The notes beneath the pieces are model-generated. The model worked only from the letters and a program-made list of their open reading frames with translations, was not told the origin of the DNA and ran no database searches. The position numbers and the translations under genes were made by a program. Of a stretch of 59,625 nt of DNA, positions 14,464 to 54,042 are shown piece after piece; the stretch's first letter is position 1, and each line of letters begins with the position of its first letter. The stretch covers positions 1 through 59,625 of the IMG/VR virus record IMGVR_UViG_3300040781_000192. One strand, given 5' to 3'. Origin of the DNA: a virus.

Positions 14464-15174
14464 TTATCCCTTCGCGATTACCGAGGCTAGTTTCTGGACG
14501 CATTCCTTCAGTGGGTAATTAAGGGTATCCAAAGTCACTTCAGGGCTTAGCGGAATTTCATATGGGGCATCATAACCCGTGAAGCCTTTTATTTCACCTT
14601 TGAATGCTTTATCCCACATCCCTTTAACATCCCGCTTGGCGCAGATTGCTGCTGGTGCTTTAACAAAAACCTCGTAGAAGGCAATCTCCCTCATGTGGTT
14701 ACGGACGCTCTCCCGCTCTTTTCCGCTCGGGGAAACAAACGCGCAGATAACAACGCTACCATCTTTGGCCTTCATCTTTGCGAGGTGTTTTACCCGCCTC
14801 AGATTCTCGGCCCTGTCTTCATCACTAAACCCTAGGTCGGAGCAAAGCGTATGACGCAATTCATCACCATCTAGGATCTCGACCCGCTTTCCGGAAGCAG
14901 ATAGCAATGCTCCAAGCGCCTTGGCAATAGTCGTCTTCCCAGAACAGGGAAGTCCGGTCAGCCAGATTACCGATCCCGGACCGCGTAGATATATTCTTCC
15001 CCAGCGCCAGACATAATCGAAGCCAGCGTAGAACATTATTTTACCTACGAATTCAAAAATCACGATGGTGCCAGCGAGCTCAACGGATCCGGTTATAAAA
15101 TAGGCTGCTGTCATGGTGACGCCGCTCGCCAGTATCCGGTAGACCAGAGCCTTGAACAAAAGCGGTTTGATCAT
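14464..15174 (-). CDS. cysC: Membrane-anchored adenylylsulfate kinase (DUF2061-CysC fusion)
   Basis: A 236-residue protein. Residues 1-57 form a DUF2061-type pair of membrane helices (KALVYRILASGVTM, EFVGKIMFYAGFDYVW). Residues 65-236 are an APS kinase: P-loop GLPCSGKTT (74-82), LDGDELRHTLCSDLGFS, ENLRR, and the APS-binding GEIKGFTGYDAPYE. APS kinase makes PAPS, the sulfate donor of sulfotransferases. All key motifs look intact. Start is ATG 15174, with GGGAGG seven bases before it, overlapping the upstream stop by four bases. A phage sulfotransferase is encoded at 31717, so PAPS could be used by the phage itself. Confidence 0.9.
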   Translation of the reverse strand: MIKPLLFKALVYRILASGVTMTAAYFITGSVELAGTIVIFEFVGKIMFYAGFDYVWRWGRIYLRGPGSVIWLTGLPCSGKTTIAKALGALLSASGKRVEILDGDELRHTLCSDLGFSDEDRAENLRRVKHLAKMKAKDGSVVICAFVSPSGKERESVRNHMREIAFYEVFVKAPAAICAKRDVKGMWDKAFKGEIKGFTGYDAPYEIPLSPEVTLDTLNYPLKECVQKLASVIAKG

Positions 15175-15539
15175 TTTCCCGCCTCCCGAAGAACTGCCTG
15201 CGCCTCTTCCGGCCAATCAAAACACTCACCGGCACGAATAGCGGTGGCGCTAATGTTTTCGATGTTCTCAGGGACTTGCATGATGGCATACCCAACGCCG
15301 CGCCCAACACAAACGGTATCGATATCGGGGATCACAATTACGCTCACAAGATCGTTGCCGGCATAAACCGCTTCGATCATTCGCTTACGCAAATCGGCTG
15401 AGTACGGGTTCTTGATATCTAGCGGGGTATCCCGAACGGCGATGCAAACTTCAAGTCCATTAGCAACATACGAGTCGACAATGTACTTGTGGCCAGCGTG
15501 AAAAGGACTCCAGCGGCCAATGAATAACTTCTTGCTCAT
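15171..15539 (-). CDS. Small nucleotidyltransferase (HxGH/cytidylyltransferase-like)
   Basis: A 122-residue protein of the HxGH nucleotidyltransferase superfamily: GRWSPFHAGHKYIV (residues 8-21) and ISATAIR (about 95-101), which match the two nucleotide-binding motifs. This superfamily contains cytidylyltransferases, NMN adenylyltransferases and ATP sulfurylases. It is much smaller than true ATP sulfurylase. It is tightly coupled to the APS kinase gene (ATGA overlap), so it may supply an activated substrate to it, for example adenylyl transfer onto sulfate; this is inference. Confidence 0.75.
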   Translation of the reverse strand: MSKKLFIGRWSPFHAGHKYIVDSYVANGLEVCIAVRDTPLDIKNPYSADLRKRMIEAVYAGNDLVSVIVIPDIDTVCVGRGVGYAIMQVPENIENISATAIRAGECFDWPEEAQAVLREAGK

Positions 15540-48635: not shown

Positions 48636-49160
48636 CTAGTCTTCCCAGTGGATAGATAACTGCCCACCCAGCTCAAGGATATCCAAGGACCTGCTATCAA
48701 GCAAGACCATTGGTGCGAGGATGTAATCAAAGTCGCCATCATAGCGGCCAAGAGAGATGGTGTAGTCATCGAGGATTTCGTAGGCACGGCCATCGTCCAC
48801 ATATCGGCCATCCTTAAACCAGATCAACTTATCGCTGGCGCTTATGCGGTGCCGCTCGTCAAACGTAACACGATACTCAAGCTGGTCATTCGCTTCGACC
48901 TGCTTGATAACGAACTGCTCAGCAACCCACTCACGGGCAACATTTTCGATTGCGTTCGGATTGAGCGGCTGCTCCCACGGAAGCTGAGCCGAGGTGTTAC
49001 AGGGCACGCGGCCGTACACCTGAGTGATTTTGGAAGTCGGGCGAATGCCGCCTTCTTCATAGCGCCCAGCAGTCAGCCGGTAGAGATTAATCTCGCGGCA
49101 TCCCTGCAGTACGCAGACGCTGTGTTTGTTACTTCTGAAACCTTTGTTGCGCTTTGCCAT
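48636..49160 (-). CDS. Hypothetical protein
   Basis: A 174-residue soluble protein. Its N-terminus is basic (AKRNKGFRSNKHSVC) with two Cys, the C-terminal half is acidic and beta-rich. SD AGGAG. It is the first gene after the lipoprotein cluster. No family recognised. Confidence 0.7.
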   Translation of the reverse strand: MAKRNKGFRSNKHSVCVLQGCREINLYRLTAGRYEEGGIRPTSKITQVYGRVPCNTSAQLPWEQPLNPNAIENVAREWVAEQFVIKQVEANDQLEYRVTFDERHRISASDKLIWFKDGRYVDDGRAYEILDDYTISLGRYDGDFDYILAPMVLLDSRSLDILELGGQLSIHWED

Positions 49161-49954: not shown

Positions 49955-50106
49955 ATATCCAGCTCCTCGTAAACATCCTTGCCGGTGAATAGCCAGACAA
50001 GAGGCCATGCGATAAAGAAGAGCAACAGGTGCATTACAACTAAACCAACAACTGCTACTGGCGCCCAAATCGGACTGGTCAATAAGACAAGCCAGCGTTT
50101 AAGCAT
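49951..50106 (-). CDS. Small membrane protein
   Basis: A 51-residue protein with a long hydrophobic stretch (VAVVGLVVMHLLLFFIAWPLVWLF). ATG 50106 lies inside the end of the 50099 gene and its stop overlaps the next gene (ATGA). The two small membrane genes are co-translated and may work together. Confidence 0.6.
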   Translation of the reverse strand: MLKRWLVLLTSPIWAPVAVVGLVVMHLLLFFIAWPLVWLFTGKDVYEELDI

Positions 50107-50401
50107 CACGCCAATCCCCTTCTAAGGCTTGCCGTGCTTCATGATAAACACAAACAAAACCGTCTTCAAGATATTCAGGATCATCATCTGGACAGCATTG
50201 CAAACAAGCGTGGTCTTTAAATAATGGCGGAGTCTTCTCTACTATCCATTTTGCCCAGATTAGTTTTTCATCTCGCAGCCGTTGGTTTTCTTCAATGGCT
50301 GAAACTAGAACGGTCACCTCAAAACTAGTGAGGTTATCTGGTCTATCATCTTCTGCCCGATATCTTAATCTTTTTAGGATGTGCTCTATTTCCGTCATCA
50401 T
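50099..50401 (-). CDS. Hypothetical protein, first gene of the leftward accessory operon
   Basis: A 100-residue helical protein with three Cys in CLQCCPDDDP near 66. ATG at 50401 has AGGGG seven bases before it. A promoter with a 17-base spacer lies just upstream, next to the 33-bp repeat array. Function unknown. Confidence 0.65.
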   Translation of the reverse strand: MMTEIEHILKRLRYRAEDDRPDNLTSFEVTVLVSAIEENQRLRDEKLIWAKWIVEKTPPLFKDHACLQCCPDDDPEYLEDGFVCVYHEARQALEGDWRDA

Positions 50402-50446
50402 ATGCAAACCCCTTCTCTGATTAATCGTTATTTATCCCCTGCAAAG

Positions 50447-50475
50447 AATATACGATGTCTGGGCTTTCGGTTCAA
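50447..50475 (-). promoter_or_regulatory. Sigma70-like promoter next to the 33-bp repeat array
   Basis: TTGAAC (50470-50475), 17-base spacer, TATATT (50447-50452). It starts the leftward accessory operon. The repeat array begins 25 bases upstream of its -35. Confidence 0.75.
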
Positions 50476-50500
50476 CTCGTATTTAGATCCTTTTTAAATC

Positions 50501-50680
50501 GGTTCTAGCACCTCCCAGAACCACCAAAAAAGAAGTTCTATTGGATTCCAGAACCAAGCAAAAACAGGTTCTAGATAGTTTTAGAACCACTGCAAGACAG
50601 GTTCTAGAACTAGTTTGACAGGTGGCTAAACATGTTCTAGAACTTCAAATAGACATGTCTAAACAGCCTCTAGAACCATA
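50501..50680. repeat. Five to six 33-bp imperfect tandem repeats (iteron-like array)
   Basis: Units at 50501, 50534, 50567, 50600 and 50633 are each exactly 33 bases long; a partial sixth begins at 50666. Each begins with a [GAT]GTTCTA core, which in later units extends to the palindrome GTTCTAGAAC. Units 1-3 also carry the reverse half-site (C/T)AGAACC 14 bases into the unit. All five full units end in A-rich A[AG]A[CG]A-like sequence. The array lies in a 464-base stretch with no supported gene. Direct repeats with a set period suit a replication initiator or regulator. Confidence 0.85.
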
Positions 50681-50865
50681 GGCAGATACGCTATTCAATT
50701 CTGCCGGACATAGTACCACCCGCATGCCTCCGAGATCGCAGCGTATACGGGCGATATGGGCTCCACTTTTCGGCGAATGCCTTCCCAGAATCCCAACATG
50801 TCCAAATAACCCTCGCATACACCCACTATTGAGTCTATTCGAGTGGTATTCGACCATTATATGAT
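50681..50865. other. Gene-free stretch right of the repeat array
   Basis: No frame with a ribosome site. It holds an AT-rich segment ATTCGACCATTATATGATC near 50850 and a Cys-rich antisense frame that I reject. No other structure was clear. Confidence 0.4.
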
Positions 50866-51306
50866 CTAAACTAGAGGGGCAGAGAAGCGTTCTGCTAGTT
50901 CTAGACGCAATCGCATTTGAAAGAACTGGATAAAATGGCCAATCTCGACATCGACAGGAATGACCACAATCTTCCTCCCATGATTCACTTTCGCTTCGAA
51001 CTTAACCCGCCATTTGCAATGACTCTTTCGATAGAATAAAGTTGGGGTTTGACCCGCGCTGGCTTGGCGAGTCGTCTGAACCCACCATTGCGAGAGTTGA
51101 AGCTGCTCACAAAACTTAACTTCCAGTGCCATCCATTCTATGCCCACAATATCAAATCCACCTACCGCACTCTGCATCTGATTCCGCAACAGCTGGGGCG
51201 GCTCTACTCCGAACTCATTATATACCAAATCAATCGACGGCTGAAGTACTTTCACCACTTCCCGCTCTCCTCGCTTACCTTTGTTACGACTAAACAAACC
51301 ACCCAT
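50866..51306 (-). CDS. PD-(D/E)XK endonuclease, resolvase-like
   Basis: A 146-residue nuclease candidate. GKRGEREVV near 9-17 gives the first Glu, GGFDIVGIEWMALEVKF (near 49-65) gives Asp and Glu-x-Lys, and QTTRQASAGQ gives a downstream Gln. This is the fold of archaeal-type Holliday resolvases and VRR-like nucleases. ATG 51306 has AAAAGGAG six bases before it. It sits between the repeat array and the primase gene, which suits DNA branch cleavage in replication. Confidence 0.7.
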   Translation of the reverse strand: MGGLFSRNKGKRGEREVVKVLQPSIDLVYNEFGVEPPQLLRNQMQSAVGGFDIVGIEWMALEVKFCEQLQLSQWWVQTTRQASAGQTPTLFYRKSHCKWRVKFEAKVNHGRKIVVIPVDVEIGHFIQFFQMRLRLELAERFSAPLV

Positions 51307-51385
51307 CTTCATCTCCTTTTAGTTAATAATATGTTTAAGAAAGAATAATACATAATCATATTACCCGTAAAGCTACAGCCACTAA

Positions 51386-51445
51386 GGGTTATATATAATA
51401 ATAATATAAATAATATAATAATATAGGATAAAACCCTTATAGGGG
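51386..51445. other. AT-rich inverted repeat, candidate DNA unwinding region
   Basis: AAGGGTT near 51386 and AACCCTT near 51432 flank about 40 bases of almost pure A/T. This hairpin is in the 248-base gap between the nuclease and primase genes. The rest of the gap (to 51554) is AT-rich with no gene. Confidence 0.55.
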
Positions 51446-51554
51446 GATACAATATCTACTCCCTGTTTTTCCTATTTACCCTTGGCCCCTATTATTATAT
51501 TATTTCACCCGCAACACCACCGTCTTCCTAGCTTTGCGGGGAATATGCCCTATA

Positions 51555-53837
51555 TTATAAATAAGACGATCCATCCCAACTATTTGTAACAGCGAAACAT
51601 TTCGAACTGCTTTTATACTTGTCAGTGATTTGTTTCGGGGGTATCTGAATCAAATCTCCCGAGTCGATTAGAACTTGGATAGCGGATTGCACTGCTCTGG
51701 TTGAGCCGCCACTATCTTTTCTAAACGAGGCGCGCTTATCAAGTCGCCGATGAAAGTAAGTGTATGGAATTATCATGTCACTGTGGAAATTGGTTGGCAC
51801 ACCGTAACTCTTTAGCGCTCCGGGTTTGGAAGTTAAGAAATGGTTGATAGCTGATTTCAAATCGGCTATTTGTTTTCCGTTGCCCTGCCCAACATCGCCG
51901 GATGCAAACCGCTTGGCAACGGTCGTGATATCCTTCTTCACAAAGGTGATTGCCCATTGCGCTATCTGCGGAGTCACTACCGCGTTATGCGGGTCGGTGC
52001 CGACTGCTATCAGCCCTGCCAGCTTGAGTGCTTTCAGGTGGGCCCGATTCCAAAGTTGACATTCAACATCTTGGCTTGACTTATTGATAACGGAATCAGC
52101 TTCGTTGTTGAATGCCAGTAGCAGGTTATTCGCTTCCGTCTCGATGGAGACCGGAGCGCAAGTGCCGTTATTCATCATCGTCAAGGAAACGGTTGCCATT
52201 TCGATAAAGCGCGCGAGCATCCTTTGGTCCGGTGCATGGTCTGCATTATGGTTGAGCGGTGGGCGTTTTCCTTTATATTCGATTATGCTGAATCGGGGTA
52301 TCAAGCCCTCGGCGATATGGCTCTCGTCAATCCCATCGAAGAATGCCTCGGGGGTTGATTCGCCGAGCAGGGTAACATTCGGCGCTTGGACTATTTTGGT
52401 GTTCTTCTCAGAATCGGAATAGGCGGTTGACTTGAGCATTTTGTCCCAGCCGGATTTTGAATACAGGTCAAGGAATACTTTCTTCAGCATGATCTCAGAA
52501 CCGCTAGCGCGAGGAGAGCTGAGCTGCTGGAGGGTTAAACCAACCTCGCCTAGAATCGAAACGAAGCATGGCTTAGTATCTAGAACCTTTATCATGGCCT
52601 GTCCAGAGGCGAAAGATCCCGGACCCGAGAACTCGTCAATCATCGGGATGGTTGGCCTTGCCGCTGACATCAACTTATCAATGCCTGTAGCAGCGCCTTC
52701 TTTGCCGGCGCCTGTTTTGGCTAGAATGATAAGATACTGATTCAGGCCGGTGCCACTGATATTATAGCTGCGACCACAAATGCCGGCTGCCAATGCTAGC
52801 GCCGCCGCAAGAGCGATTTCAGGTACGGGTCTGATTGCACTTGAGTATATATACTGTGCCATCTCTCCCACGAGCCCGATTGGAAGTTCAACGCCGTGGA
52901 GTGGCACAGGTTCAGAAATCGGCGCTTGTTCATGCTGGCTTGGAGCGGGCTGAGTTGTTGCGGGTATTTCGGGCCTCTCTGCTTCTCGGCGATCTTCCGT
53001 CGCAGTAGCGATCGCCGCTTGCGCGTTAAGTTTAAGTTCGTCAAAGTCGACTGGCGCTGGTTGCTTGGCCCTGATCTTGCCAAGGGCGAAGTTGATGTAG
53101 GTATCATTTCTTTGGGCCTTCTCTCTTTTGCCAAGTGCGCTCATTCTAAAGATGCGGCGTACCTGCTCATTGGATTGGGTGTAGAAAGCGATAATAGACA
53201 GGAGCGCCAAATCGGCTTCTGACTGGCTCGGGTATTCAGACATGTCCCCTGAACAGAGGGCATCAAACTTTTCCCCATTCACAGCGCCCGATGCCATCTC
53301 CACAATAGCCATGTCACTGACATCGCCATCCTGTTCGGAGAGCTCGACGGTTACCTCGGGTTTCATCTGCCCGTACATTCCGGTCAGTATTTCTTGGCAG
53401 TCCTTGATTGGCCGGTGATGAACCGTATCGCCGGTGCAAATCATATAGCGCCCAGTGCTATACATTTCGATGTGGTCGCGATTAACGCCGGACGGGATAG
53501 CTCCTCGCACAATAATATGATACCCAGTCTTTGAAGTGCTGCGCTCGGTATAACTTTGGCAGGCTTCCATGATTGAGTCATGGCGGGCAAGCTGTTCAGC
53601 TGTGGCAGGATTCTCCGGCTTATTATCTAAATCAATAATAGAGTAGGGGTCCCATGATGCGAGGACATAACCAACATTCGGGTATCCGGTTCGGCAGGCT
53701 TCTTCGAAGGTTCCCCAAGTGGCAGGATCTGTCGGGGATGCCATTTGCCCAGTGCGCGGATTGATAGGTTTCTTATCAAGGCCGGCACATACCCACTGGT
53801 CTCGCTCGCGCAATTCAAGTGGAATGTTATTTCGCAA
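51555..53837 (-). CDS. Primase-polymerase / ATPase fusion (replication initiation)
   Basis: A 760-residue protein. The N-terminal 200 residues look like an archaeo-eukaryotic primase (Prim-Pol) domain: NVGYVLASWDPYSIIDLDN supplies the catalytic Asp pair and GYHIIVRG a conserved His. Residues about 215-250 (RRIFRMSALGKREKAQRNDTY) fit the helix bundle found after NrS-1-like primases. The C-terminal half has a P-loop AKTGAGKE (near 370) and ATPase-like features. The TTG start at 53837 has AAGGAG seven bases before it. It likely starts replication, perhaps at the nearby repeats. Confidence 0.8.
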   Translation of the reverse strand: MRNNIPLELRERDQWVCAGLDKKPINPRTGQMASPTDPATWGTFEEACRTGYPNVGYVLASWDPYSIIDLDNKPENPATAEQLARHDSIMEACQSYTERSTSKTGYHIIVRGAIPSGVNRDHIEMYSTGRYMICTGDTVHHRPIKDCQEILTGMYGQMKPEVTVELSEQDGDVSDMAIVEMASGAVNGEKFDALCSGDMSEYPSQSEADLALLSIIAFYTQSNEQVRRIFRMSALGKREKAQRNDTYINFALGKIRAKQPAPVDFDELKLNAQAAIATATEDRREAERPEIPATTQPAPSQHEQAPISEPVPLHGVELPIGLVGEMAQYIYSSAIRPVPEIALAAALALAAGICGRSYNISGTGLNQYLIILAKTGAGKEGAATGIDKLMSAARPTIPMIDEFSGPGSFASGQAMIKVLDTKPCFVSILGEVGLTLQQLSSPRASGSEIMLKKVFLDLYSKSGWDKMLKSTAYSDSEKNTKIVQAPNVTLLGESTPEAFFDGIDESHIAEGLIPRFSIIEYKGKRPPLNHNADHAPDQRMLARFIEMATVSLTMMNNGTCAPVSIETEANNLLLAFNNEADSVINKSSQDVECQLWNRAHLKALKLAGLIAVGTDPHNAVVTPQIAQWAITFVKKDITTVAKRFASGDVGQGNGKQIADLKSAINHFLTSKPGALKSYGVPTNFHSDMIIPYTYFHRRLDKRASFRKDSGGSTRAVQSAIQVLIDSGDLIQIPPKQITDKYKSSSKCFAVTNSWDGSSYL

Positions 53838-54042
53838 GTTGCTGCTCCTTCAATATAGCATTCAAATATTCAATTCGATTAACAGACGGATTCTTGGTCT
53901 TTTCATCGATAAGCGATTTCAGCCAAAAGTAGGGGAGGCCGGTTTCGATATGCAACTGGATAAGTGTCCTTTTATCGGACTGAAGCAGCAAAGTGGTTTC
54001 CCTGAGCAATTTGCCGGGTTTGTCAAAGTCTTCTGTGCCCAT
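53827..54042 (-). CDS. Small HTH regulator
   Basis: A 71-residue protein. Residues about 18-60 form a Cro/CI-like helix-turn-helix (LLLQSDKRTLIQLHIETGLPYFWLKSLID). It is encoded just before the primase gene, whose TTG start lies inside its end. It faces the divergent early promoter region, so it may control the early genes or the replication operon. Confidence 0.75.
   Translation of the reverse strand: MGTEDFDKPGKLLRETTLLLQSDKRTLIQLHIETGLPYFWLKSLIDEKTKNPSVNRIEYLNAILKEQQLAK

Follow-up and report, generated by a model that had tools for sequence, protein, structure and literature searches.

A 33-bp Array of Inverted Half-Sites Upstream of a Leftward Gene Cluster in a Phage with 7-Deazaguanine Genes: A Candidate Tandem Operator

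Introduction

The phage genome IMGVR_UViG_3300040781_000192 (59,625 nt, analysed over its whole length and hereafter called the window) carries a 33-bp tandem array close to its replication genes, which raises the question of whether the array is an origin of replication or the binding site of a regulator. The genome possesses a queuosine/7-deazaguanine gene set (QueE, QueC, PTPS/QueD-like, GTP cyclohydrolase, and queuine tRNA-ribosyltransferase-like), and its replication module is similar to those in Queuovirinae and related siphophages. The order on the leftward strand is a gene for a 71-aa HTH protein (53827-54042), a primase gene with NrS-1 HBD and DUF3987 domains (51555-53837; phrog_3022, E 2e-209; PF22763, PF13148), an AT-rich gap (51313-51554), a gene for a PDDEXK nuclease resembling RusA-like Holliday-junction resolvases (50866-51312; PF24608, E 3e-6; phrog_244, E 2e-10), the 458-bp gap containing the array, and then small genes of unassigned function. 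The neighbours named in a first-pass annotation of this DNA, namely the PDDEXK/RusA-like gene, an AT-rich hairpin (51383-51439) and the primase, were all found in place. The first gene of the leftward small-gene cluster (50099-50407, minus strand), with a likely ATG start a few codons inside, belongs to no known family, and the cluster continues into the terminase and structural genes. Searches with the proteins of this cluster (50099-50407 and 48636-49160) gave no phage relatives able to supply closer genomes.

Results and Discussion

The array consists of regularly spaced inverted half-sites

The array proved to be real, with five 33-bp units at 50501, 50534, 50567, 50600 and 50633 and a partial sixth at 50666, at an exact spacing of 33 bp. 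A direct period scan gave a period-33 self-match of 85/132 positions from 50512, as compared with 64 at the second-best position anywhere in the window and a maximum of 63 in 30 locally shuffled windows. Tandem Repeats Finder did not report the array, because its copies are too diverged. Common to the six units (50501-50677) are the inverted half-sites GGTTCT/AGAACC, which are kept from unit to unit, in contrast to the intervening DNA.

The arrangement of the half-sites divides the units into two groups. GGTTCT at position 0 and AGAACC at +16 are found in unit 1 (50501-50533), which also has AGCACC at +6, and in unit 3 (50567-50599), while unit 2 (50534-50566) has AGTTCT at 0 and AGAACC at +16. 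The right half-site lies at +6 in unit 4 (50600-50632) and unit 5 (50633-50665), which form the abutting dyads GGTTCTAGAACT and TGTTCTAGAACT, respectively, and in partial unit 6 (50666-50677), which reads GCCTCTAGAACC. Between the two groups, the right half-site is displaced by exactly 10 bp, or roughly one turn of the helix. A displacement of this size fits a dimeric protein that binds DNA; it would be expected if the sites were contacted by a protein, but not if they formed RNA hairpins. At their distance of 33 bp, neighbouring units are separated by 3.1 turns and share the same helix face only roughly.

We considered whether the dyads might act instead as RNA, forming tandem stem-loops with U-runs in leftward transcripts, which would serve as weak terminators or processing sites between the primase-PDDEXK transcript and the cluster that follows. 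Read on the minus strand, units 2 and 3 do show GGTTCT..AGAAC(C/T) with TCTTTTTT or TGTTTTT behind it, a single terminator-like match is present at 50588-50567, and the folding z-score of 50495-50700 is -3.9. However, self-complementary repeats alone raise the folding score, the stems are only 6-7 bp long, and units 4-6 are loopless abutting palindromes, in which this hairpin cannot form although the half-sites and the 33-bp phase are retained. We consider a role of the dyads as RNA improbable. An array of intrinsic terminators, with a stem and a U-run in every unit, was rejected, as units 4-6 have no loop. An Rfam search of the whole window gave no match.

A degenerate seventh site, GGTTCAACTCGTATTTAGATCC (50469-50490), was found 32 bp from unit 1, with 10/12 half-site letters, and is one of very few spaced dyads in the window with at most two mismatches. 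GGTTCT/AGAACC dyads of this quality are concentrated at the array, and no other cluster of the motif exists in the genome. The locus presents several dyad copies at a regular spacing of 33 or 32 bp, six units and one degenerate site, as in tandem operator arrays. As a separate observation, an extra AGTTCTAG half-site is present at the 3' end of the nuclease gene (window positions 50894-50930); its distance from the left half-site of unit 6 is 231 bp (7 x 33), which may be a matter of chance (about 1 in 33).

The seventh site covers the -35 box of a putative leftward promoter

No ORF-free stretch in the window is longer than the gap containing the array (50408-50865, 458 bp) when ORFs of at least 75 aa are counted, in agreement with the first-pass annotation, and the array in it lies immediately upstream of the first leftward gene. 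The leftward promoter also claimed there exists as a sigma-70-like match, TTGAAC-17-TATATT (50447-50475, minus strand), just upstream of that gene, with TTGAAC at 50475-50470, a 17-bp spacer, TATATT at 50452-50447, and 9/12 consensus letters; sigma-70-like matches are no commoner in this region than in shuffled sequences, so that support above chance is absent. The seventh site covers the -35 box of this putative promoter, which also points to transcriptional control.

Taken together, the one-turn shift, the seventh site and the location immediately in front of the leftward cluster fit a tandem operator for a dimeric regulator better than RNA hairpins or iterons. We favour, with moderate confidence, the hypothesis that the array is a lineage-specific tandem operator of six or seven sites controlling the putative leftward promoter. 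The inverted half-sites GGTTCT/AGAACC would be the target of a dimeric protein that binds DNA sequence-specifically, and the presence of one left and one right half-site per unit, at spacings differing by one helical turn, may mean that the same protein binds with a flexible reach. Cooperative filling along the array would then place the protein on the -35 box, and its occupation would switch the leftward small-gene cluster, by either repression or activation. Here we infer the activity of the promoter as well as the binding, the identity of the binder and the sign of its effect. The number of sites speaks against an operator, as phages often use fewer than six in an operator, whereas direct repeats at even spacing in six or more copies would also be in keeping with iterons. 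If the hypothesis is correct, the array would provide a concrete switch site in a poorly studied phage group with 7-deazaguanine genes.

Two other functions were dropped on the basis of the gene content. A packaging (pac) site was ruled out by position, as the terminase genes lie at 39-41 kb, and a recombinase res site was ruled out since no site-specific recombinase was present among the subset of ORFs scanned.

The array is absent from the relatives compared

The first-pass annotation had suggested a search of related genomes for conserved repeats. We compared 80 IMG/VR loci together with stretches of ten relatives and annotated phages, all around homologous primases. The array was found neither elsewhere in the window nor in about 100 homologous-primase loci or six complete related phages, the nearest primases being about 59% identical or less. 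As these relatives are distant, the absence of the array argues against a conserved origin function and is silent on conservation of the sites within the lineage. A BLAST search with the array gave nothing in phages and only chance pieces in plasmids. Scans for patterns of two units and two palindromes in IMG/VR, and one scan of GTDB genomes, yielded only coding repeats, unrelated palindromic repeats and chance matches. One locus with a similar form that is unrelated to the phage, in a Tannerella MAG (L191, 1577-1900), has dyads GGTTCTATCTCCGGATAGAACC at a spacing of about 41 bp.

Arrays of evenly spaced dyads are likewise a typical form of centromere and host-factor sites. The array could accordingly bind a host regulator, or have a maintenance or partition role like that of centromere-like iterons, instead of acting as a lytic switch of the phage. 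The evenly spaced dyad form agrees with such a role, as does the finding that the only phage-regulator-like match in Pfam scans was an HTH-like match in a protein beside the terminase. However, the ORFs scanned yielded no partition protein and the plasmids no similar array, and two genome-contig matches to the array pattern turned out to be unrelated repeats; we regard this explanation as very unlikely.

The AT-rich gap downstream of the primase is the likeliest origin site

The other function put forward in the first-pass annotation, an iteron-type origin, was examined in the light of the neighbouring gap between the primase and PDDEXK genes (51313-51554). This gap contains the window's most AT-rich 60 bp (from 51381) and an 8-bp stem, TAAGGGTT/AACCCTTA (51383-51439), around an AT-rich loop, with a modest folding z-score of about -1 to -1.6. 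Among the relatives' loci in which the nuclease closely follows the primase, the gap is mostly 200-420 bp long and often AT-rich. In 47 of 85 loci, as compared with 3.4 expected, the most AT-rich 60 bp of the locus lies no more than 450 bp beyond the primase stop; this set of loci includes near-duplicates and does not represent 85 independent cases. The same holds for the most AT-rich 60 bp of the genome in six of seven complete genomes, the window included. An AT-rich gap downstream of phrog_3022 primases is positionally conserved in the window and in the loci L004, L080, L094, L095, L109, L115, L118 and L125. By eye, the AT tract in several of the relatives' gaps is surrounded by oligomer repeats, inverted or direct, which differ between lineages. 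We found no counterpart of the 458-bp array gap in the relatives, in which the next gene usually follows the nuclease within about 110 bp.

Judged from sequence comparison, the gap 51313-51554, rather than the array, is most likely the origin site. The array might nevertheless be an origin of the iteron type, or else assist replication as an accessory element together with the AT-rich stem-loop, in which case an initiator (the primase or the XRE-fold protein) would bind it and help to open the AT-rich region about 0.7 kb away. Such cooperation has a precedent in phage P4, where crr works with ori. Evenly spaced 33-bp direct repeats near a primase, an AT-rich region at that distance, and a cumulative GC-skew minimum of the window at 51618 are consistent with this possibility. 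The skew extreme, however, is inconsistently placed in the relatives and carries little weight, and the minimum was dropped as evidence for an origin. The most AT-rich stretch (51381-51440) is not adjacent to the array, as an unwinding element of iterons would be, but lies about 700 bp away across the nuclease gene, and the repeats are not conserved with the replication module, being absent from the loci with the same primase type and from the complete relatives described above. In addition, the gaps downstream of the primase in the relatives are commonly AT-rich and repeat-bearing, and the one in the window has no GGTTCT site. In phage BIP-1, likewise, iteron-like repeats elsewhere in the genome did not resemble its origin (PMC4234260). 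An iteron-type origin or accessory replication role is unlikely in our judgement, and of the two functions first proposed, the conserved origin-like position elsewhere and the seventh site over the -35 box favour the regulator site of the leftward operon.

A combined function can also be conceived, in which the array would be a second, lineage-specific replication element, an iteron cluster separated by the nuclease gene from a stem-loop origin; the XRE-fold protein would bind this cluster and at the same time gate the leftward promoter. Such a dual role would link replication initiation with the changeover to leftward genes; we give this idea little credence.

Moving the origin call to the gap would avoid annotation of the array as an iteron origin, and it offers a conserved origin candidate behind the primase for a large phage family, with 265 encoding stretches in IMG/VR and 464 matching phage records. 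No description of origins in the phage family with phrog_3022 primases was found in the literature searched. In the primase-nuclease gap of Stenotrophomonas phage Bhz54 (L094, 3358-3510), we noticed a 77-bp tandem duplication with T-tracts, of which the related Baskent_P4_1 has a single copy. Two Achromobacter phages (L095, 8267-8615, and L009, 6261-6609) carry inverted arrays GTGTTTTCGGT / ACCGAAAACAC in the gap downstream of the primase.

An HTH protein of the primase operon is a candidate regulator

The 71-aa protein encoded at 53827-54042 (minus strand) has a predicted lambda-repressor/XRE-like fold (AlphaFold pLDDT 87) and is a candidate DNA-binding partner of the array. Homologues are encoded upstream of the primase in most of the loci compared (94 aligned rows). 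Its closest solved folds include the AcrIIA15 NTD, Aca11 and the SinR NTD with Z of 6-8; at such values a shared arrangement is often seen and does not show function. The SinR half-site also contains GTTCT, which we note as a lead only. On the basis of its modelled fold, the XRE-like protein may be regarded as a candidate array regulator. The promoter region of the HTH gene has no GGTTCT-type site, giving no sign of autoregulation; the motif is likewise absent from relatives with homologous HTH proteins, and no regulator gene adjoins the array.

Comparison with known systems

The array resembles the lambda OL/OR operators and the Apl operators of phage 186 pR-pL in having repeated dyads or half-sites at a regular spacing that overlap or flank a promoter, here a putative one. 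It differs from them in having more sites (six or seven), a 33-bp period, no adjacent repressor gene, and a promoter and protein binding that are predicted ones. Like the iteron origins of RSF1010 and P4 (ori/crr), it comprises several direct repeats, all of one length, close to a primase gene; unlike those, it is not conserved with the primase and lies outside the AT-rich gap, and the conserved gap has no copy of the motif.

The gap itself is comparable to plasmid pRN1, in which an operon of a repressor (orf56) and a replication protein (orf904) is followed by a stem-loop shown to be necessary for replication, and to phage BIP-1, which has a stem-loop 3' of its replication gene and iteron-like repeats elsewhere that were discounted (PMC4234260). 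The window element 51313-51554 has the pRN1 layout, with a small DNA-binding protein gene, a primase gene and a stem-loop just 3' of it (PMC4234260), and the HTH gene overlaps the primase gene, giving the same operon of small DNA-binding protein and replication protein. The domain make-up of the replication proteins differs, and the likeness concerns the neighbouring gap, a candidate origin, and not the array.

The HTH-primase-PDDEXK module and 7-deazaguanine genes are shared with Queuovirinae and related siphophages (VpKK5, 033B, Bhz54 and Baskent_P4_1), whereas these relatives have no 33-bp array and their next gene lies close behind the nuclease. In phage 9g, opposed promoters have been predicted in a non-translated region (PMC4276943).

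Two further features of the genome were noticed. Both contig ends (1-26 and 59600-59625) lie in the same CTCCTG repeat within a single-strand-binding protein gene, and look as if a circular or permuted genome had been opened within a low-complexity stretch. The gene at 14464-15216 encodes an APS kinase domain fused to a DUF2061 membrane domain.
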